Origin: Paracoccaceae bacterium
GTDB taxonomy: Bacteria > Pseudomonadota > Alphaproteobacteria > Rhodobacterales > Rhodobacteraceae
DNA: 32,275 nt
Direction of reading: 5' to 3'
NCBI GenBank assembly: GCA_947371955.1
Contig: CANBRQ010000026.1
Location: 1-32,275 of the forward strand
The first letter of the stretch is position 1; each line of letters begins with the position of its first letter. The position numbers and the translations under genes were made by a program. This document shows positions 19,839-31,572 of the stretch, piece by piece. The notes below the pieces were generated by a model. The model worked only from the letters and a program-made list of their open reading frames with translations, made no database searches and was not told where the DNA came from.

Positions 19839-21059
19839 CTACAGCCTGCGCACCGCCACCCAGCTTGCCGCAGCCATGGCCCCCGCCGTAGCAAGGCACA
19901 ACGGCAGCCCGCCCAACTGATAGCTGATGCCCGACAGCGCCGTGCCCAAAAGCCGCCCCGCCGCATTGGCCATGTAGTAGAACCCCACATCCATCGAGAC
20001 CCTCTCTGCCCGCGAGAAGGCCAGGATCAGATAGGAATGCACCGAGGAATTCACCGCAAAGACAAAGCCGAAGGCCATCAGGCCAAGCACCAACACCACC
20101 GTGAACCACATCGCCGGGGCGGCAAAGGACAAAGCCGCCAGCACCAGTGGAATAGGCGTCAGAATCGCCGCCCAAAGCACGGCCTTGCCGATGATGGCCG
20201 ACTCGGGCTGGCCCTTCGCCTTCAGAAGCTGCGGCGCAAAGGCCTGCACTGCCCCGTAAGCGATGGTCCACAAAGCCATGAAGCCGCCTATCAGGAAAAA
20301 CGCCGTCCGGCGGCCATCCGGGGTGCCATCCGACAGAACCGCCTGAAAATACACCGGAATCCCCACGACAAACCAGACATCCCGCGCCCCGAACAGAAAC
20401 ATCCGCGCCAGCGACAACTGGTTGATGCGCCTGTCCTTCGACCAGATCTGCGAGATCTTCGCCTCTTTCTTGCCCGGCGGCAGACCCTTCGGCAGGAACA
20501 GCACCACGGCTGCCAGGATCACCGCCAGCACCGCCGCCATCCCCCAGACTGCCGTCTTGAACCCCACCAGCGCCAGCAAGGCCGCGCCCAGAAAGAACCC
20601 CAGCCCCTTGACCGCGTTCTTCGACCCGGTCAGCACCGCCACCCAGCGGAACAGCACACCCTCCCCCTTCGGCGCCAGCACCTTGACCGCCGACTTGGAA
20701 GACATCTTCGCCAGATCCTTGGCCACCCCCGACACACCCTGCACCGCCGTGACAAAGGCAACCGAGGCCGCAATGCTCCACGCCGGGTCCAGTTGCGCCA
20801 GCGCAACCAAAGCGGCGATCTGCAGGCACAGGCCCGCATACAGCGTGGTCGCCAGCCCGAAGCGCGCCGCAATCCAGCCCGCGTAAAGGTTGGTCACCAC
20901 CCCGGCCAGTTCATACAGCAGGAACAGCCACGCCAGTTGAATAGGCGTGAACCCCAACCCGTTGAACTGCAGCAACACCAGCAGCCGCAACGCGCCGTCT
21001 GACAGCATGAAAGCCCAATAGGCCGCCGTCACCGCCACATAGGCACGAAGGCCGTTCAC
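19839..21059 (-). CDS. arsJ: ArsJ organoarsenical efflux MFS transporter
   Basis: 406 aa, GTG start; [56 protein letters not shown]...[21 protein letters not shown]...[14 protein letters not shown]; adjacent to GAPDH. Confidence 0.92.
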
Positions 21060-22066
21060 AGCGACCCTGCAACCATGCGAACCACATCAGCCAGACGGCA
21101 GGAATAGCCCCACTCATTGTCATACCAAGCGTAGATCTTCACCTGCGTGCCGTTCACCACCATCGTACTCGCCGCATCAATGATTGAAGACCTCGGGTCA
21201 TTCACATAGTCGGTCGACACCAAAGGCCGCGTCTCAAACCCCAGAATCCCCTTCAACACCCCCTCCGATGCCGCCTTGAACAGCCCGTTCACCTCCTGAA
21301 CCGAGGTCTCCCGTTCCACTTCAAACACACAATCGGTCAGCGAGGCATTCAAAAGCGGCACCCTTACCGCATGGCCATTCAACCGCCCCTTCAACTCCGG
21401 ATAAATCAGCGTGATCGCCGTAGCCGACCCGGTGGAGGTCGGGATCAGGTTCATCAAAGCCGACCGCGCCCGCCGCATGTCCTTGGCCGGACGGTCCACG
21501 ATGGTCTGCGTGTTGGTCACATCATGGATCGTGGTGATCGACCCATGCCGGATGCCAATCCCCTCATGAATCACCTTGACCACCGGGGCGAGGCAGTTGG
21601 TCGTGCAACTCGCCGCCGTGATCAGGTTGTGCACCGCCGGGTCATAAAGGTGATGGTTCACCCCATAGACCAGATTCAAAGCCCCGCCGTCCTTGACCGG
21701 GGCCGAGACGACCACCTTCTTCACCCCCGCCGCATAGTAGGGCGCAATCTTCTCGGCAGTCTTGAAAATGCCGGTGCAGTCGATCACCAGATCAATCCCC
21801 ATCTCCGCCAACGGCAAATCCTCGATCCGCTTCGCAGCGGTCAGCCGGATACGCTGCCCCGACAAGGTCAGGCTTCCGGCATCAAAAGAAATAGACCGGG
21901 GCCAGCGGCCGTGCACCGAGTCGAACTCCATCAGCAAGGCATGCTGTTCCGGCTCCCCCACCGGGTCGTTGATCAGAACGATCTCTCCGCCTGCCCCGCT
22001 GTCGATCAGGTCACGCAGGGCAAGCTTGCCAATCCGGCCAAGGCCGTTCAGGGCGATACGGGTCAT
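21056..22066 (-). CDS. ArsJ-associated glyceraldehyde-3-phosphate dehydrogenase
   Basis: 336 aa; [19 protein letters not shown]; catalytic Cys motif [41 protein letters not shown] overlap with arsJ. Confidence 0.95.
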
Positions 22067-22875
22067 GTGAGGCGTCCAATTCGGTCAAGGTTCTGTTGCA
22101 GCGCAACTTTCTGCAATTCGGCAAAGGGCAAAGCGGCAAAGGCCGTGATGCGGCGGTGCAGTTCGGCATAGGCTTGGGCGAAAGCGAGCGCCTTTTCGGC
22201 GTCAGTTCCAGTGGCCTTGACCGGGTCCGGCACACCCCAGTGCGCGGTCATCGGCTGACCCGGCCAAGGGGCGCATTCCTCGGCGGCGGACAAATCGCAG
22301 ACGGTAAAGACGAAATCCATCTGCGGCGCATCGGCTGCGGCAAACTCGGACACATGTTTCGACCGAAGCGGCGCGACGTCATGCCCGGCCCGCGCCAGAA
22401 CCTCGATCGCGAAGGGGTTCAACTGTGTGCCGGGGCGCGTACCCGCCGAATAGGCGGTGAAGCGCCCCTTCCCCGCATCGCGCAGGATGGCTTCGGCAAA
22501 GATCGACCGGGCCGAGTTGCCCGAGCAGATGAACAGCACATTCCAAGGACGGTCAGCCATGGCAAACTCCTTTGGGTGGATGTGGGCGGAAAGATCCGGG
22601 CGGCCGCGCCCGGCGTCATTGACCAGATAGCCGACAAGATCCGCCACCTGTTCCAGCCGGACGCTGTAGAACAAGGACCGCCCCTGCCGTTCGGCCTCGA
22701 TCAACCCGGCGGCTTCAAGGTCTGACAGGTGGTGCGACAGCGTATTGGCCTTGAGGTCCAGCGCCTGCGAAATCTCGGTCGGCCGCACGCCCTGCGGCGC
22801 AAAGCGCATCAGCAACCGGAAGACGGCAAGGCGTCCGGGATGGCCAAGGGTGGCGAAGGCGAGGCTCTGTTCCAT
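22063..22875 (-). CDS. ArsR-type regulator fused to low-molecular-weight phosphatase-type arsenate reductase (ArsC)
   Basis: 270 aa; N-terminal [54 protein letters not shown]-terminal [22 protein letters not shown] (CX5R) ... [26 protein letters not shown] overlap with GAPDH. Confidence 0.92.
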
Positions 22876-22929: not shown

Positions 22930-24261
22930 TCACTCGCCCTGCCCAAGGTAAGGCGTCCGCATCGGCCCCGCCGCATTGGCATGGGCTGGAAAGCCCTCAT
23001 ACTCCGCCAGCCTCCGCGCATGGCCCGACAGTTCCGGCCAGGCCTTCGCGGTGACATAGCCAATCGAACTGCGCTTCATGAAATCCGTCACCGACAAGGG
23101 CCCATGACTGCGCGCGCCCGAGGAGGTCGGCAGCACATTGTTCGGCCCCAGACAGAAGTTCGCCACCGTCACCGGCGTATGCGGCCCCAGCAAGATCTCG
23201 GCAGCCTCGGTCAACTCGCCCAAGTGTTCAAAGGGCCGGGTCGACAAAATCTCCAGATGCTCCGGCGCATAGTCGTTGATAAACGCGTAAGCCTCCGCCA
23301 GCGACCCCGCCAGAATGATCCCCCCCGACCGCCCCGTCAGCACGGTCTGTGAAAACCCCTGCCGCTGCGGCGTCATCTGCGCCCAATGGGCCGGCAAGGC
23401 CTCCAACGCCTGCGCCACGACCGTCTCCGATGTGGTCACCAGCCAGGCCGAGGAATCCGGCCCATGCTCCGCCTCGATCAGCAAATCCAAGGCCGCAAGC
23501 CCGCCATGCACCGTCCCATCATCAAAGATGATGCATTCCGAGGGCCCCGCCGGAAGCCCCGGATCAATCACATCCGACAACAACCGCTTGGCCGCCACCA
23601 CATAAGGCGACCCCGGCCCGACGATCTTGATGGCCCGCTTCACCGTCTCAGTCCCAAACGCCGCTGCCGCCACTGCCTGCGCGCCGCCCACCTTGTAGAC
23701 CGTCTCAACCCCCGCCAACCGCGCCGCCACCAGCGTCGCCGCATCCACCTTCCCGTCCAAGGTCGGCGGCGTGAAGATCGCCACATCCTTCACCCCGGCC
23801 AATACCGCCGGAACCGAGGTCATCATCGTCACCGACGGAAAACTCCCTTTCCCCCGCGGCACATACAGCGCAACCGACCGCAGCGGCGTAAACCTGTCCC
23901 CCGCAAAGGCCCCCGGCCGGATTTCCTTGAGAAACATCGGGTCCGGCACCTGTTCCTCATGAAACCAGCGGATATTGCCAATCGCATAGCGGATCGTCTC
24001 GACCAAATCCGGCTCCAGCAGCGCAAAGGCCTCGTCAAACTCCGCTTCCGACGCCTTCAGCCCCTCAGGCCGCAACCCCTCCGCCCCATCCAGCTCCCGG
24101 CCAAACCGCGCCAGCGCCACATCGCCTTCCAGCCTCACGGCTTCAATGATCGGGCGCACCTTGTCGAAGAACTCGGCCAGATTGCCCTCCGACCGGCGCA
24201 GCAGGTCCCCCCGCGCCTCGGCCGACAAGCCTGCCAGTCTGACCACATTCACGTCTGCCAT
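22930..24261 (-). CDS. Histidinol dehydrogenase family protein (paralog; probably not biosynthetic HisD)
   Basis: Start MADVNVVRLAGLS at 24261; PRGKGSFPSVTMMTSVPAVLAGV, VGGAQAVAAAAFGTETV, KIVGPGSPYVVAAKR, EAEHGPDSSAWLVT, NDYAPEHLEI, EGFPAHANA; differs from canonical HisD at two metal-site positions. Confidence 0.9.
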   Translation of the reverse strand: MADVNVVRLAGLSAEARGDLLRRSEGNLAEFFDKVRPIIEAVRLEGDVALARFGRELDGAEGLRPEGLKASEAEFDEAFALLEPDLVETIRYAIGNIRWFHEEQVPDPMFLKEIRPGAFAGDRFTPLRSVALYVPRGKGSFPSVTMMTSVPAVLAGVKDVAIFTPPTLDGKVDAATLVAARLAGVETVYKVGGAQAVAAAAFGTETVKRAIKIVGPGSPYVVAAKRLLSDVIDPGLPAGPSECIIFDDGTVHGGLAALDLLIEAEHGPDSSAWLVTTSETVVAQALEALPAHWAQMTPQRQGFSQTVLTGRSGGIILAGSLAEAYAFINDYAPEHLEILSTRPFEHLGELTEAAEILLGPHTPVTVANFCLGPNNVLPTSSGARSHGPLSVTDFMKRSSIGYVTAKAWPELSGHARRLAEYEGFPAHANAAGPMRTPYLGQGE

Positions 24262-24288
24262 ATCCGCCCCACCCATCCCACAAAGCCC

Positions 24289-25038
24289 CTAGATAGAGGC
24301 CAGATAGCCGCCATCAATGCCAAGGCATTGCCCCGTGATATAGGCCGAAGCGTCCGAGGCCAAGAACACCACCGCCCCCACCAGATCCTGCCCGACCCCA
24401 AACCGCCCCTGCGGGATTTTCCCCAGCATCGCCTCGGCCCAGTCCTGATCCTGATAAAACACTTCCGTCAGGTCGGTGCGGAAATAGCCGGGTGCAATCG
24501 CATTCACCCTGACCCCCCGCCCGGCCCATTCCGCAGCCAAACCCCTTGTCATCCCCAACAGCCCCGATTTCGAAGACCCATAAGGCACCGCCGTCGGCAC
24601 GCCCACGAACGAAGTCAGCGAGGCCAGATTCACCACCGAACCCCGCCCCCGCGCCAGCATCCCCTTGCCCACCGCCTGCGTCGTGAAAAACGCGCCCTTC
24701 AGGTTGGTATCCACAATCCTGTCCCACAAAGCCGGGGTCACCTCGTTCGAGGGCATCACCTCCTCCACCCCCGCATTGTTGACCAGAATATCCACCTCCA
24801 GCCCCTCCAGCGCCGGCCCGATCCCCTCCGCCTCCGCCTGATCCAGCGCGAGGCATCTCACCCCCCGCCCCAGCCCCCTGATCCGCGCAGCCGTCTCCCC
24901 CAACGCCACCAAACTCCGGGCCGTAACCCCCAAATCCGCCCCCGCCTCAGCAAGTCCAACCGCCATAGCAGCCCCCAGCCCCCGACTGGCCCCCGTCACC
25001 AAAGCCGTCCGCCCCGAGAGTGAGAAAAGTTGCGACAT
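24289..25038 (-). CDS. Short-chain dehydrogenase/reductase (SDR)
   Basis: 249 aa; LVTGASRGLGAAMAVGLAEAG, DILVNNAGVE, YGSSKSG (YxxxK), C-terminal ITGQCLGIDGGYLASI; 27-nt gap to the hisD-like gene. Confidence 0.95.
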   Translation of the reverse strand: MSQLFSLSGRTALVTGASRGLGAAMAVGLAEAGADLGVTARSLVALGETAARIRGLGRGVRCLALDQAEAEGIGPALEGLEVDILVNNAGVEEVMPSNEVTPALWDRIVDTNLKGAFFTTQAVGKGMLARGRGSVVNLASLTSFVGVPTAVPYGSSKSGLLGMTRGLAAEWAGRGVRVNAIAPGYFRTDLTEVFYQDQDWAEAMLGKIPQGRFGVGQDLVGAVVFLASDASAYITGQCLGIDGGYLASI

Positions 25039-25121: not shown

Positions 25122-25778
25122 TCAATTCGCCCCGACTTCAAAATACCTCACGATGTATTCTGAATAGCGCGAGGTATTCCTCCGGTCCCATATTTCGACA
25201 CCGATACCGTAAATCTCACCATCGCTGGCGAAGGTGGTTAGCGTTCGCCGGAAGTTCGGCTCGTCCAGGAAGAAGATTGCGGTCGCTGTCGCGGATATAC
25301 TCTCAAGCGAACGACGCTCAATACACAGGGAAAAATCTGTAGCCGTGTAGCCCGTTCGGGGCTTTACGTTATCATATCCCGTGCACTCAAGTCTGAGTTT
25401 CTTCAGCTTCTGCCCGACGAACCGGTTTTGAAAGCTGTAAACAAAGTTCATCGGCACCGGCCCGTTCTTGTCATAACTGTTGAACTCAAGAAATTTGCCA
25501 AATCTGTAGAAACCAAACTCACCGGATCGGAAAAGCAAATGGCATCCGCTGCCTTTTGCCCCAACAGAGAACAAGAAGATGTCCTTTTCTGCAGGATCAT
25601 CAGCGCGCGAAACGATCAGGTCGCCTTGCCTTTCGACAACCTTTCCCTTCTGCGCTTGGCAAACGTAGCTGACGTCGGCCACGGGTTTATCAAGTGTTTG
25701 AGCGGAGAGATGCGGCGCAAGAAGGCCCGACATCAAAAATAGGGCGCACGAACCCAACAGCGCGAATGTTCTTACCAT
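25122..25778 (-). CDS. Hypothetical secreted protein
   Basis: Start MVRTFALLGSCALFLMSGLLAPHLSAQ (signal peptide) at 25778; noticeably lower GC than the flanks; no family recognised. Confidence 0.7.
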   Translation of the reverse strand: MVRTFALLGSCALFLMSGLLAPHLSAQTLDKPVADVSYVCQAQKGKVVERQGDLIVSRADDPAEKDIFLFSVGAKGSGCHLLFRSGEFGFYRFGKFLEFNSYDKNGPVPMNFVYSFQNRFVGQKLKKLRLECTGYDNVKPRTGYTATDFSLCIERRSLESISATATAIFFLDEPNFRRTLTTFASDGEIYGIGVEIWDRRNTSRYSEYIVRYFEVGAN

Positions 25779-25866
25779 TCCCAACTACCCCTCTTCAAAC
25801 GCCCGCACTTAAACCCCGATTCGCGCATCATGGTTAACACAGCCAAACACCTCCGCGCGTAGAGAC

Positions 25867-25899
25867 GGAAGGAAGACCGAAGGAAGACGCAAGGAAGAC
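25867..25899. repeat. Short 11-bp tandem repeat (3 units)
   Basis: GGAAGGAAGAC / CGAAGGAAGAC / GCAAGGAAGAC, consensus NNAAGGAAGAC. Confidence 0.85.
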
Positions 25900-26026
25900 A
25901 GCGCTTTCCCCTCAAATCCCGCCGATTAATCCAGCGTTCGCAAGCCCTTGCGGCCCGTTGTGCGGTGTTGGCAGGCTCCGGCGTCTTGCGAGGCGGAGGA
26001 AAGACGCTCAGTCATCGCTTCGTCGG

Positions 26027-26122
26027 TTTGCCTGAATTTCAGGCAAAGTCCTACGTAGGAGAAACCTAACCCACGCGGCGAAAATCCGTCATTGTTTCCC
26101 ATGGGCAAACATGTTTGCCTGA
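26027..26122. promoter_or_regulatory. Palindrome array upstream of the NitT/TauT-type ABC operon
   Basis: TTTGCCTGA-ATT-TCAGGCAAA (26027-26047); TCCTACGTAGGA (26049-26060); GGCAAACATGTTTGCC (26104-26119) followed by TGA, giving a third TTTGCCTGA at 26114-26122. Confidence 0.7.
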
Positions 26123-26167
26123 CGCCCACAACAGCGCCGCAAGGGTGCGATGAACAGGGAGACTGCG

Positions 26168-27124
26168 ATGACCAAGTATCTGGCCTCGGTGGCGCTCATC
26201 GGTCTGATGGCCGGATCGGTGCAGGCGGGCGAAATCAAGCTCGGGATGACGACTTGGGTCGGCTACGGCGAGATCTTCCTCGCCAAAGAGCTGGGCTATT
26301 TCAGTGACTTGGGCCTGACCGTCGATCCGCAGATCATCGAGGAAGGCTCGCTGACCATGGCCGCGGTCGCGTCCGGTGAGTTGCAGGGCACCGCCGCCAC
26401 GATCGACGAGATCATGAAGTACCGCACGCCCGAGATGTGCTTCAAGGCCGTCTATGCGCTGGATGACAGCCACGGCGGCGATGGCATTCTGGCGGGCACG
26501 GATGTGAAGTCGATTGCCGATCTGAAGGGCAAGGATGTGGCGATGAACGAGGGTTCGGTCAGCCAGTTCTGGTTCAATATTCTGTTGAAACAGAATGGGT
26601 TGACCGAAAAGGACGTCAACATCGTCAACATGACCGCCGACGACGCCGCCGCCGCTTTCATGGCGGGCCAAGTGCCGGTTGCAGTGACTTGGGAGCCGCA
26701 TCTGACGCTCGCCAAGGATCAGCATATCGGTCAGGTGCTGATTTCCTCAGACAAGACCCCAGGCCTGATCGTGGACGTGATCGCGCTGCGCTGCGACACG
26801 GTCAAGGACCATCCAGAAGACGTGAAGGCGCTGGTGGCAGGTCTTGAAAAGGCGCATGAATACCTGCTGGCCAATCAGGAAAAAGCCTATGAAATCATGG
26901 CGAAAGGCGTCGGCGGCTGGCTTTCGGACCCGAAGGATTTCGCAGCCTCCGCCGCTGGCGTTCAGTTCTACGGCAAGGACCGCAACGCCGAATTCTTCAA
27001 GGACGGTGCCACAGGCGAATCCGGCAAACTGGTGACCTTGGGCGGCGAGATCTGGGGTGGTCTGGGCAAGCTGCACATGGATGTGAAATACGACGATCTG
27101 GTCGACACCTCCTTCCTGCAATGA
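26168..27124 (+). CDS. NitT/TauT-type ABC transporter substrate-binding protein
   Basis: Start MTKYLASVALIGLMAGSVQAGEIKLGMTTWVGYGEIFLAKELGYFSDLGLTVDPQIIEEGSLTMAAVASGELQGTAATID; signal peptide; GGGAG RBS; in-frame ATG at 26150 is an alternative. Confidence 0.93.
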   Translation: MTKYLASVALIGLMAGSVQAGEIKLGMTTWVGYGEIFLAKELGYFSDLGLTVDPQIIEEGSLTMAAVASGELQGTAATIDEIMKYRTPEMCFKAVYALDDSHGGDGILAGTDVKSIADLKGKDVAMNEGSVSQFWFNILLKQNGLTEKDVNIVNMTADDAAAAFMAGQVPVAVTWEPHLTLAKDQHIGQVLISSDKTPGLIVDVIALRCDTVKDHPEDVKALVAGLEKAHEYLLANQEKAYEIMAKGVGGWLSDPKDFAASAAGVQFYGKDRNAEFFKDGATGESGKLVTLGGEIWGGLGKLHMDVKYDDLVDTSFLQ

Positions 27125-27132
27125 CATCGGAC

Positions 27133-27149
27133 CGGGGCTAACAGCCCCG
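27133..27149 (+). other. Intra-operonic hairpin between substrate-binding and permease genes
   Basis: CGGGGCT-AAC-AGCCCCG perfect 7-bp stem, no T-tract. Confidence 0.7.
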
Positions 27150-27173
27150 ATTCTTTCACACAAGGTTCCCCAA

Positions 27174-27974
27174 GTGTCTGATAAATCCGCTTTTTCTGCG
27201 GCCCTCGTCCCGTATCGTCCGATTTCTGCGGGACTGTCGGTGACCTTGGGCGTGCTGGTCTGGGCCTTGGTTCTGGGTGGCTGGATGTATTTGGCCAACG
27301 GCAACCATGTGCCCGCCATGTTCCTGCCTGATCCTGGCAAGGTGCTGGCCACCGCTGGCAAACTGGCAATGGACGGCTCGTTGTGGAGCAACACGATCGC
27401 CTCGGCTCAGGTAGTACTGATTGGGTTTGTGGTATCCTCGGTCGTGGCGGTTCCCTTGGGGCTTTACATGGGCACCTACAGGGCGGTGCAGGCGGCGCTG
27501 GACCCTTTGGTGAACTTTATCAGGTACTTGCCGGTGACCTCTTTCGTGCCGCTGTTCATCCTGTGGATCGGGATTGGTCTGGAGGAGCGGGTCGCCGTGA
27601 TCGTCTTCGGCACCTTCTTCCAGCAGTTGGTCATGATCGCCGATGCCGCGCGATCCGTGCCCCGAGACCTTGTGAACGCCGCCTATACCCTTGGCACCAA
27701 ACGGTCGACGACCGTGCGGCACATCGTCTTCCCCTCCACCCTTCCGGCGGTGCTGGATGTGCTGCGGGTGACGGTGGGCTGGGCCTGGACCTATCTGGTG
27801 GTGGCCGAACTCGTCGCCGCGAAATCCGGCCTTGGCTACATGAGCCTGAAGGCCATGCGCGGCTTTCAGGTCGATATCATTTTCCTCGCCATCGCCATGA
27901 TCGGCATTCTGGGGCTGATCACGGATCAGGGCTTCCGGTTGCTGCGCCGGGTGATTGCCCCTTGGGCCATCTGA
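27174..27974 (+). CDS. NitT/TauT-type ABC transporter permease
   Basis: 266 aa, GTG start; SNTIASAQVVLIGFVVSSVVAVPLGLYMGTYRAVQAALDPLVNFIRYLPVTSFVPLFILWIGIGLEERVAVIVFGTFFQQLVMIADAARSVPRDLVNAAYTLG (EAA loop). Confidence 0.95.
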   Translation: MSDKSAFSAALVPYRPISAGLSVTLGVLVWALVLGGWMYLANGNHVPAMFLPDPGKVLATAGKLAMDGSLWSNTIASAQVVLIGFVVSSVVAVPLGLYMGTYRAVQAALDPLVNFIRYLPVTSFVPLFILWIGIGLEERVAVIVFGTFFQQLVMIADAARSVPRDLVNAAYTLGTKRSTTVRHIVFPSTLPAVLDVLRVTVGWAWTYLVVAELVAAKSGLGYMSLKAMRGFQVDIIFLAIAMIGILGLITDQGFRLLRRVIAPWAI

Positions 27975-27975
27975 C

Positions 27976-28752
27976 ATGACCTCCTCCGCCGATATCACCA
28001 TCTCCGACGTGTCCTTGCGCTATGGCAAAGGGGCCAAGACCGTGCTGGCGCTGGACGGCATATCCTTGGACGTCAAGCCCAACGAATTCGCCGTCATCGT
28101 CGGGCCTTCCGGTTGCGGCAAGTCGAGCCTTCTGTACCTGATCGCCGGGCTGGAGGATCTGACCGGAGGCCGCATCACCGTCGGTGGCCAAGGCATTGAA
28201 GGACCGGGGCCGGATCGGGGGATGGTGTTTCAAAGCTATACCTTGTTCCCGTGGCTGACTGTGGCGCAGAATGTGGAATATGGCCCGCGTCGGCGCGGGT
28301 TGGGGGAGGCCGAGCGCAAGGCACTGGTCGATCACTATCTGGAGGAGGTCGGCCTTGCCTCCTTTCGCAACCACTACCCCGCGCAACTGTCTGGCGGCAT
28401 GAAGCAGCGCGTTGCGATTGCCCGGGCTTTGGCCAATGACCCGGCGGTTCTGCTGATGGACGAGCCCTTCGGCGCTTTGGACAGCCAGACCCGCCACACC
28501 ATGCAGCGGCTTTTGCTGCGGGTCTGGGATCACAGCCACAAGACGGTTCTGTTTGTCACGCATGACATCGAGGAAGCCATCCTTCTGGCCGACCGCGTCT
28601 TCGTCATGTCAGGCAGACCGGGGCAAATCCGCAAGGTCCTGACCGTGGATTTCCCAAGGCCAAGGGTCGGAGATATCGTGCTGGACCCCGCCTTCATCGC
28701 CATGAAGCGCGAGATCATGGGCCTTCTGCGCAGCGAAGACGACGATCACTGA
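27976..28752 (+). CDS. NitT/TauT-type ABC transporter ATPase
   Basis: Start MTSSADITISDVSLRYG at 27976; Walker A GPSGCGKSS, LSGGMKQRVAIARAL, LLMDEPFGALD, VTHDIEEAILLADRVFVM. Confidence 0.96.
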   Translation: MTSSADITISDVSLRYGKGAKTVLALDGISLDVKPNEFAVIVGPSGCGKSSLLYLIAGLEDLTGGRITVGGQGIEGPGPDRGMVFQSYTLFPWLTVAQNVEYGPRRRGLGEAERKALVDHYLEEVGLASFRNHYPAQLSGGMKQRVAIARALANDPAVLLMDEPFGALDSQTRHTMQRLLLRVWDHSHKTVLFVTHDIEEAILLADRVFVMSGRPGQIRKVLTVDFPRPRVGDIVLDPAFIAMKREIMGLLRSEDDDH

Positions 28753-28805
28753 GCTGGACAGGTGTATGAACCCGTCCTAGCCTTCCTCCAAAATGGGAGG
28801 CGAAG

Positions 28806-30431
28806 ATGTCATTCACCCTGTCAGGAACCGTGATCGTCAGCGGCACCAAGGCGCATCCCCACGCCTTCCGCCGGCTGAAAGAGGCCCTCCCGGGCATCGA
28901 CTGGCAAGAAGGCGGGGCCTTAGACCGGCCTGCCGTGATCCTGAAAACCGGTGACAGGCCCGAGGGCAGCTTCCGCATCACGGCTTCTGCCCCCGTCGTC
29001 ACGGTGGAAGGCGGTCCGTTCTCTGGCGTGATCTTCGGCGTGGAAGAGTTGATTGCCAAGGCCGAGAATCCCTCTCGCCTGACCGTGACCGAGACGGACC
29101 AGACCCCCGGCCTGACCTACCGCACTTTCTGGACATGGGATCATTCGACCAACTGGGAACTCTCCCAAATCGGCCAGCAGGAAATCGGTGTCTTCAACCC
29201 CTATGGCAAACCGCCCTCGGGCTTCCTGCGCGACTACAAACGCTGCGTGGATTTCTGCAGCCGCAACAAGATCGCTGCGATCGTGATCTATGGCTTCCTG
29301 CGCGATCCGCATGGCGGGGTGGAGGCGGCTCGGGAACTTTGCCGCTACGCCACAGAACGCGGCGTGCGCATCCTTCCAGGCATCGCGATAGGCTCCTATG
29401 GCGGGGTCTATTGGGAAGGTGCCAGCAGGTACAACCTCGCCACTTGGCTGCGCCAAAACCCGCAGCACGCGGCGACGCTGGAGAAGGGCGTGGGCTTCCA
29501 GATCGCCGATCTGGCGTTTCCTTTGAACTTCCCGAAGTCGGACTACACCCTGTCGGCCTGCCCCTCCGCCCCGGAAACCATGGCGTGGATGGAGGAGGGC
29601 GTGGCCTGGCTGACCGAGACTTTCGACATCGGCGGCATCAACATCGAGGCAGGGGACTATGGCGTCTGCGGCTGTGCCCGTTGCGTGGCGCGGCGCGACA
29701 ATGAGCGGGAGGCTGCACGTAGGCGCGAGGTGCACGGCGACTATTGGTCCCACACCGACATGGCAGACAACTTCCCAAGGCTGTACCGCACCGCCAAGGC
29801 GATCAAGCCGGACCTGTGGATTTATTCAGAAATCCAGTGGGATAACCTGTTGGACCCCGTGGCCCACGAGGCGCAGCGGCGCCTCCCAAAGGGCGGCATC
29901 TACCAGCACACCACCAACCGCAGCTATTGGGGTCGCATCCAGCAAGGGCTGACTCGTGGGTATGTCGAAAGCCTGCCGACCCAGCCCAATGTCCTGCGCT
30001 GCCAGTTCGCCTGCCAGTGGAACGGCGATGAGCGGTCAGAGCGCTATGCCCTCAACGCCCGCGTCTTTGGCGAAATGGCGCGGGTTTGTGACCGGACGGG
30101 GATGAACGGCCTGACGATCTGGGGCGAACCCTCGCCGTATCACGCGACGGTGGAACTGTCCTACCTCGCCTTCGCCCGCTTCAGCTGGAACCCAAGCCTG
30201 AGCTTCGAGGACTTCGTCGAACAGGACGCCGCATCCCGGTTGGGCGGGTTGGAGGCGGCGCAGCGCTTCATTGCGATTGCCGAAGAGCTTGACGCCGCAC
30301 AGACCCTGCCAACCGACCGTTTGGAAACCTTGCGGCAAGCCGCGGCAGAGCACCGCGCCGGTGGCGAGATCGGCCGTCGCTGGCTGAGCCTTGAAGACCA
30401 GATCACCCGCAGGCTTTACATGGGGGCCTAG
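28806..30431 (+). CDS. Putative glycoside-hydrolase-like protein (alpha/beta N-domain plus TIM-barrel-like region)
   Basis: 541 aa; GVIFGVEELIAKAENPSRLTVTETDQTPGLTYRTFWTWDHSTNW layout like alpha-glucuronidase/hexosaminidase enzymes with an N-terminal alpha/beta domain; GGINIEAGDYGVCGCARCVARR; RBS GGGAGG upstream. No exact family assigned. Confidence 0.6.
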   Translation: MSFTLSGTVIVSGTKAHPHAFRRLKEALPGIDWQEGGALDRPAVILKTGDRPEGSFRITASAPVVTVEGGPFSGVIFGVEELIAKAENPSRLTVTETDQTPGLTYRTFWTWDHSTNWELSQIGQQEIGVFNPYGKPPSGFLRDYKRCVDFCSRNKIAAIVIYGFLRDPHGGVEAARELCRYATERGVRILPGIAIGSYGGVYWEGASRYNLATWLRQNPQHAATLEKGVGFQIADLAFPLNFPKSDYTLSACPSAPETMAWMEEGVAWLTETFDIGGINIEAGDYGVCGCARCVARRDNEREAARRREVHGDYWSHTDMADNFPRLYRTAKAIKPDLWIYSEIQWDNLLDPVAHEAQRRLPKGGIYQHTTNRSYWGRIQQGLTRGYVESLPTQPNVLRCQFACQWNGDERSERYALNARVFGEMARVCDRTGMNGLTIWGEPSPYHATVELSYLAFARFSWNPSLSFEDFVEQDAASRLGGLEAAQRFIAIAEELDAAQTLPTDRLETLRQAAAEHRAGGEIGRRWLSLEDQITRRLYMGA

Positions 30432-31354
30432 ACGGTGGGCCGCAAAGCCTCGGCCACGGCGAGGTCTGCCATGGCCAATGCGGCCTCGCGTGTTTTAGCG
30501 GCGGCGATGAAGCGGCCATTGTGGCAGAAGCTGGCACCCGGAATACCAGAGGCGGCTTCAAGGTCAGCCCCAGTCAGACCGGCCCATGTGGCGGGCAGGT
30601 CGGCGCGCAAGACGAAGCCGTCTTCGGCGCGGCGGATGCCCGTCACGCACCAGTCCTTGTCCCGGGGATGCACGACGAACAGCAGGTGATCCGCACCGGC
30701 CTTCACGATGGCGGGGCGGAAGGGCATGCCCATCGGCAGTTCCAGCACCCGGCCCGCCCCCGCCGCCACGATGGCTTCTGCCACCACGCCCTCGGCCCGC
30801 AGCTTGGCGGCACTGCGGGAGACACGCGCCTCGACAAAGGCCCGCGCGATGGTCACGGCGCCGTGGAAGGCGCGGGTTTCGGCCTCGGGATCGGTCTCGT
30901 CAAAGTCAGGTTTCAGCATTTCCAGCAGGCCGGGCAGAGTCATGCCGGCCAAGGGGCCAGCGACAGACAGGCTGACGGTGCCGTTGTCCACCTGATCGAC
31001 CGGAAGCACGAAACTGGCATCGAACGAAGCCCATATCGCGTCAACCCGCGCCTCGGGTACGGCCATCGCGGCCAGATAGGCGCGACCGAAGTGCTGCCAG
31101 ATCAACCCGAAGGAACTGAGCGGCTGGCCATCCGCCCGCAAAGGTGCGCCGCGCTGGTGGTGGTCGAAAATCTGTGCCTCGGCATCATACTTGCCACCCA
31201 CGTCATAGATGATCCGGTCCGGCGCGGGGCTGATCCACTCTGCCGCACGGCTGCGCATCAGTTGCGCCTCCGGGTAAAGCCGCGTCAGGATGACCGAGGA
31301 CATCACCTCATCCGCATGAAACCCGCCGGAATGGGTGACGAGGTATTTCACCAT
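30428..31354 (-). CDS. MYG1 family protein (UPF0160; DHH-like predicted metal-dependent hydrolase/exonuclease)
   Basis: 308 aa from ATG 31354; MVKYLVTHSGGFHADEVMSSVILTRLYPEAQLMRSR...IIYDVGGKYDAEAQIFDHHQRGAP...SSFGLIWQHFGRAYL. Confidence 0.93.
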   Translation of the reverse strand: MVKYLVTHSGGFHADEVMSSVILTRLYPEAQLMRSRAAEWISPAPDRIIYDVGGKYDAEAQIFDHHQRGAPLRADGQPLSSFGLIWQHFGRAYLAAMAVPEARVDAIWASFDASFVLPVDQVDNGTVSLSVAGPLAGMTLPGLLEMLKPDFDETDPEAETRAFHGAVTIARAFVEARVSRSAAKLRAEGVVAEAIVAAGAGRVLELPMGMPFRPAIVKAGADHLLFVVHPRDKDWCVTGIRRAEDGFVLRADLPATWAGLTGADLEAASGIPGASFCHNGRFIAAAKTREAALAMADLAVAEALRPTV

Positions 31355-31572
31355 CACGCAGCCTTCCCCATGCGCGTGGTGAAGAGGGTCTGCCAGCCCG
31401 CCACGACCTCTTCCGACAGGAACAGCAGGCCCGCCACATCCTCGACCGACAACCCGTCGGACAGCAGAAGCAGGGCATTGGCCATCCGGGCCTGCACGAC
31501 GTCAGAGGATTTGCTTTGCAGGGCCTTCAGCAGCATGGCGTGATCGTCGGCGGAAAGAAGCATTTGGGTCAT
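31354..31572 (-). CDS. Small helix-turn-helix protein
   Basis: 72 aa from MTQMLLSADDHAML; RMANALLLLSDGLSVEDVAGLLFLSEEVVAGWQTLF has a homeodomain-like HTH pattern; overlaps the MYG1 start by 1 nt. Confidence 0.7.
   Translation of the reverse strand: MTQMLLSADDHAMLLKALQSKSSDVVQARMANALLLLSDGLSVEDVAGLLFLSEEVVAGWQTLFTTRMGKAA

Follow-up and report, generated by a model that had tools for sequence, protein, structure and literature searches.

A NitT/TauT-type importer next to a glycoside-hydrolase-like gene in a Paracoccaceae genome: probably an accident of gene order

Gene layout and conserved partners of the importer

The window analysed here is a stretch of 32,275 nts from a Paracoccaceae bacterium (contig CANBRQ010000026.1 of assembly GCA_947371955.1). 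Between positions 26168 and 30431, four ORFs follow one another on the + strand in the order given by the original prediction, namely a binding protein, a permease, an ATPase and, 53 nts from the ATPase stop codon to its ATG, a 541-aa protein. The genes of this region are the following:

22930..24276, - strand: HisD-family dehydrogenase (PF00815, 2.6e-126)
24289..25038, - strand: SDR dehydrogenase, divergent from the importer, which it adjoins in 8/8 other genus members having the importer
25122..25784, - strand: 220-aa probably exported protein, between the SDR and binding-protein genes (no Pfam or PHROG match)
26168..27124, + strand: NitT/TauT-type periplasmic substrate-binding protein (Pfam NMT1, 1.3e-24; SsuA_fam, 5.2e-37)
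27174..27974, + strand: ABC permease, TauC/SsuC-like (BPD_transp_1, 1.5e-26; TauC model, 4.1e-38, under its cut-off)
27976..28752, + strand: ABC ATPase, TauB/NrtCD-like (ABC_tran, 4.3e-33; TauB model, 8.5e-75, under its cut-off)
28806..30431, + strand: glycoside-hydrolase-like (GH-like) protein of 541 aa, with a predicted GH20b-like N-terminal domain and (beta/alpha)8 barrel (AlphaFold2, Foldseek, invariant residues)
30428..31357, - strand: MYG1/UPF0160 family protein, convergent with the GH-like gene (MYG1_exonuc, 9.3e-70)

The binding-protein ORF opens at 26150 but, on inspection, translation more likely begins at the ATG at 26168, which follows an AGGGAG ribosome site. The ATPase starts either at 27976 or at a TTG at 27955. 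Inspection of the N-terminus of the GH-like protein revealed no obvious signal peptide, in agreement with the cytosolic location proposed for it. The GC content of the region is lowest around the gene of the 220-aa protein. On the far side of the HisD-family gene, the - strand of 21056-22875 encodes an ArsR/arsenate-reductase-like fusion protein and, beside it, an ArsJ-associated GAPDH, which together constitute an arsenic detoxification set of the 1-arseno-3-phosphoglycerate type.

Pfam and NCBIfam models place the importer in the NitT/TauT superfamily, with an NMT1/SsuA-type binding protein and, in one operon with it, the matching TauC/SsuC-type permease and TauB/NrtCD-type ATPase. The sequence relatives of the binding protein in the PDB are SsuA, taurine and nitrate/sulfonate binding proteins. 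All three subunits thus belong to the same superfamily as SsuABC, TauABC and NrtABCD, but none of them reaches the NCBIfam cut-off of any of these named equivalogs, and the importer differs from those systems in having SDR and HisD-like dehydrogenases as partners.

These two dehydrogenases appear to be the real partners of the importer. The SDR gene is divergent beside it in all eight other importer-bearing genomes of the genus (one SDR copy is cut by a contig end), and the HisD-like gene follows the SDR gene in seven of them, the eighth contig ending inside the SDR gene. The window genome contains three HisD-family genes, and the importer-side copy is the third paralogue. This paralogue carries a Glu where the main HisD of the genome has a Gln (LLIEAEH vs LLSQAEH). 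The best PDB relatives of the SDR are 4j2h and hexonate and gluconate dehydrogenases, with HpsO lower down. The cluster of importer, SDR and HisD-like genes may define an import-and-oxidise module, which would probably serve the uptake and oxidation of a small polyol, amino-alcohol or sulfonate-like compound.

The same combination of a HisD-family enzyme and an SDR is found in the HpsN/HpsO pair, and both window dehydrogenases have HpsN/HpsO relatives in the PDB. However, the G-R-Y-A/S-H motif of HpsN (PMC11382572), with its sulfonate-binding His, is replaced by GKGSF in the window HisD-like protein, which also scores higher to HisD than to HpsN. Because the HpsN motif is absent, DHPS (sulfopropanediol) was rejected as the substrate of the importer cluster.

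The gene slot 3′ of the importer varies among genus members, where translations inspected by eye indicate an IS630-like transposase, an apparent Rieske oxygenase or a kinase-like or GGDEF-like ORF. In two members of the genus (L075 and L077) the Rieske-type ORF (~335 aa, by eye) comes immediately after the ATPase gene, and it may say more about the substrate of the importer than the GH-like gene does.

The importer and GH-like genes in other genomes

The original prediction read the four genes as an operon for the import and processing of an unusual, perhaps glycosylated, small molecule. In such an operon the NitT/TauT importer would take up a glycosylated small molecule or a sulfonated sugar, to be cleaved by the cytosolic GH-like protein. 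The shared strand and the 53-nt gap make co-transcription possible in this strain, and the arrangement could have acquired a function. A ribosome-site-like sequence also precedes the ATG of the GH-like gene, no terminator-like site was found between it and the ATPase gene, and the apparent Rieske ORF of two genus members (by eye) indicates that the slot after the importer may hold co-transcribed enzymes elsewhere.

Against this, the adjacency expected of a functional operon was absent from every other genome examined. Across 16 genomes of the genus, the window genome included, the GH-like gene is present in 5 (the window genome and 4 others) and the binding protein in 9 (the window genome and 8 of the 15 others), the importer homologues being 83-95% identical. 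Four genomes contain both, and the two are adjacent only in the window genome, whereas the other three carry them on different contigs. The importer-containing stretches of the eight other genus genomes hold no GH-like gene, nor do the GH-like stretches of the same genus genomes hold an importer gene. Similarly, at 55 other loci of the GH-like family, tblastn (1e-3) found no homologue of the binding protein or of the permease nearby, and the ATPase matched only by general ABC similarity. In a family sample of 397 genomes, the GH-like gene was found in 5 and an importer homologue (E 1e-60) in 2, with the window genome counted in each.

Hence the pair is not conserved outside the window genome, an outcome that the original prediction itself had named as speaking against it. 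Because the genes stand together only here and have different partners elsewhere, the arrangement read as an import-and-digest operon probably arose by chance, and a true operon is now quite improbable. The importer and the GH-like protein would then have no functional link in the window genome. A sulfoquinovose-type variant, combining a sulfonate importer with a glycosidase, was dropped, since the pair is not conserved.

Comparison with the nearest genome suggests how the two genes came together. Shared DNA stops at 28754, 2 bp past the ATPase stop codon, and resumes at 30456 inside the MYG1 gene. Window positions 25816-28754 match one contig of that genome and the MYG1 gene from 30456 matches another, the 1.7 kb between the two breaks corresponding to the GH-like gene. 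Since homology is lost after the ATPase gene and restored in the gene next to the GH-like one, the latter sits at a rearrangement junction, and a rearrangement would have placed it behind the importer in the window genome. At the corresponding places in the nearest genome, an IS630-like transposase ORF (by eye) lies 3′ of the importer and an ABC-type ATPase gene lies beside MYG1. In five other genus members MYG1 does not adjoin the GH-like gene. The 220-aa protein is also absent from the nearest genome, where the positions equivalent to 25088 and 25816 are 9 bp apart.

A mis-assembly joining the importer, GH-like and MYG1 regions would make the adjacency artefactual. The draft genome comprises 353 contigs and the homology breaks coincide with gene ends (28754 and near 30456), as might be expected of such an error. 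However, all three segments have homologues in the genus, the GH-like protein being 84-85% identical to those of three other genus members, and there is no sharp composition step at the joins, so that a mis-assembly is very improbable.

Sequence family, predicted fold and candidate catalytic residues of the GH-like protein

Searched alone, the 541-aa protein has no significant match in Pfam or NCBIfam and no relative in a PDB sequence search. Scanning of genome contigs identified 55 loci with relatives (43-84% identity in the best segment; seven repeat records of loci were counted once). Most of the family comes from Hyphomicrobiales and Rhodobacterales, and a small number from Microbacteriaceae. 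An alignment of 46 family proteins, including that of the window, has a mean column identity of 72% and 131 invariant columns. A profile of this alignment returned only the window protein from 385 alphaproteobacterial genomes searched for distant members, so that it led to no intermediate family, and a plasmid search gave no relative. Against the PDB, the N-terminal part of the family profile hits GH20 enzymes (E 4e-4), and Glyco_hydro_20b, the N-terminal domain of GH20, matches 18 of the 46 members (best 6.8e-5). No Pfam match to the GH20 catalytic domain was found for the window protein or among the 46 members, and the DUF4838 signal was not significant, with a weak Pfam trace in 2 of the 46 (best E 0.23).

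An AlphaFold2 model of the protein (pLDDT 87, pTM 0.89) consists of an N-terminal alpha/beta domain and a (beta/alpha)8 barrel, the arrangement of the GH20/GH67/GH138-like fold group. Foldseek against the PDB ranked GH138 BP0997 first (E 4.6e-16, TMq 0.53), followed by GH20 enzymes, with a GH67 alpha-glucuronidase also high; these matches have ~12% identity and moderate TM-scores (about 0.5). The model, the Foldseek matches and the weak GH20b profile traces bear out the earlier GH-like assignment at the level of the fold group, and the protein does look like a member of an undescribed glycoside-hydrolase-like family. GH138 BP0997/BT0997 is an exo-alpha-galacturonidase of rhamnogalacturonan II. 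The window protein shares with it the alpha/beta domain and the barrel, a likeness of fold only, but is ~12% identical, shorter (541 vs about 850 aa), cytosolic and differently surrounded, and matches it in none of the PDB searches at the sequence level.

Several residues are invariant in all 46 proteins, namely W109/W111/D112/H113, E204, E281, D284, E342, W345, D346 and E441, as are four cysteines (252, 288, 290 and 293). As read off the model, Glu281 ends beta4, Glu342 ends beta5 and Glu441 follows beta8. These three are candidate catalytic residues, invariant Glu positions being compatible with hydrolase activity, and the first of them, Glu281, is the strongest candidate for the general acid. 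The four cysteines point to a site of an unusual kind, which perhaps binds a metal. The Cys-rich CxCxxC segment after beta4 presumably resembles DUF4838, a domain linked to GH163 endo-glycosidases, but the profile likeness is not significant and the family is not assigned to DUF4838/GH163.

GH20 beta-N-acetylhexosaminidases share the GH20b-like N-terminal domain and the overall fold. However, the consecutive acidic pair of the type Asp437-Glu438, given for a Vibrio GH20 enzyme in PMC4752478, is not invariant in the family, and Asn-Ile precedes Glu281 in the window protein. With neither a catalytic-domain match nor an invariant pair of consecutive acidic residues where beta4 ends, the family falls outside GH20.

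The fold could also belong to a protein that lost glycosidase activity or never had it, such as a sugar-binding protein or a non-hydrolytic lyase or isomerase. No characterised family member was found, the invariant acidic pair of GH20 is missing and the four invariant cysteines point to an unusual site, all of which would suit such a protein. Nevertheless, several invariant acidic and aromatic residues are located at strand ends, as in active hydrolases, and the mutarotase genes adjoining the family in other genomes suggest that a free reducing sugar is released, which makes a non-glycosidase role unlikely. The most fitting interpretation of the GH-like protein is an exo-glycosidase acting inside the cell, its hydrolytic activity being inferred from these features.

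Genomic neighbourhoods and a possible pathway

Neighbourhoods were counted within eight genes of the GH-like gene at the 55 loci, using locus-specific gene calling, clustering and Pfam/NCBIfam labels; cluster labels come from one representative each, and some permeases and CUT2 parts were labelled by eye from sequence. A Gfo/Idh/MocA oxidoreductase was found at 27/55 loci, a DoeB-like deacylase at 22 and a lactonase-like amidohydrolase at 19, the closest NCBIfam model of the last being L-fucono-1,5-lactonase (9.7e-30, under its cut-off). The mutarotase RhaM is present at 17 loci and FucU at 6, so that 23 of the 55 have either one. Less frequent neighbours are an IclR regulator (15 loci), CUT1 and CUT2 binding proteins (12 and 10, respectively), a serine/threonine dehydratase-like protein (9) and a PfkB kinase (7). 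This sugar-gene context is seen in two phyla, in Hyphomicrobiales and in Microbacteriaceae. The Microbacteriaceae loci combine the same functional set with another type of importer, a recurrence that would be difficult to account for without a common pathway. Five loci (L013, L015, L016, L050 and L051), from four Kaistia species and a Hyphomicrobiales MAG, form a Kaistia-type group in which a GH4-like enzyme and an ABC operon of the peptide/oligosaccharide type, both labelled by eye, adjoin the GH-like gene.

The exo-glycosidase possibly feeds a deoxyhexose-type oxidative pathway. In such a pathway a sugar ABC system would import a small glycoside, which the GH-like enzyme would hydrolyse inside the cell by means of its invariant barrel Glu. 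The released sugar, at best guess a deoxyhexose such as L-fucose or L-rhamnose, would be mutarotated by RhaM or FucU and oxidised to a lactone by the Gfo/Idh/MocA oxidoreductase, and the lactone would be opened by the lactonase-like amidohydrolase. As speculation, the deacylase and dehydratase genes, together with aminotransferase genes in Microbacteriaceae, might point to an aglycone resembling an amino acid.

In the phylogenetic tree of the family, the window protein belongs to a clade of 14 that is otherwise mostly rhodobacteral. Because this clade mostly lacks the sugar-gene context, the substrate proposed for the window genome is extrapolated from other clades. Sugar ABC genes occur within the clade only at L008 and, by gene list, at L007. 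The window genome has three RhaM genes; a search around them revealed no partner genes, and one of the three looks by eye like part of an ordinary rhamnose ABC/kinase cluster.

Taken together, the region is best explained as two unrelated modules side by side, a NitT/TauT importer with its dehydrogenases and a single-gene intracellular exo-glycosidase of the GH20/GH67/GH138-like fold group, a reading to which we give a probability of about 0.75. A more specific proposal, tentative and open to considerable doubt, is that the Pfam-absent family acts intracellularly, with a four-Cys site next to beta4, to free a deoxyhexose-type sugar from a small glycoside with an amino-acid-like aglycone, and that the sugar enters a mutarotase, Gfo/Idh dehydrogenase and lactonase route common to Alphaproteobacteria and Microbacteriaceae.

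The locus is a cautionary case, in which the short gap between genes on one strand looked like a sign of an operon and comparison at the genus level showed the pairing to be strain-specific. Ordinary as an operon claim, it is moderately interesting for its hydrolase-like family, which is strongly conserved, has no Pfam model and has catabolic neighbours defined well enough for its substrate to be tested.
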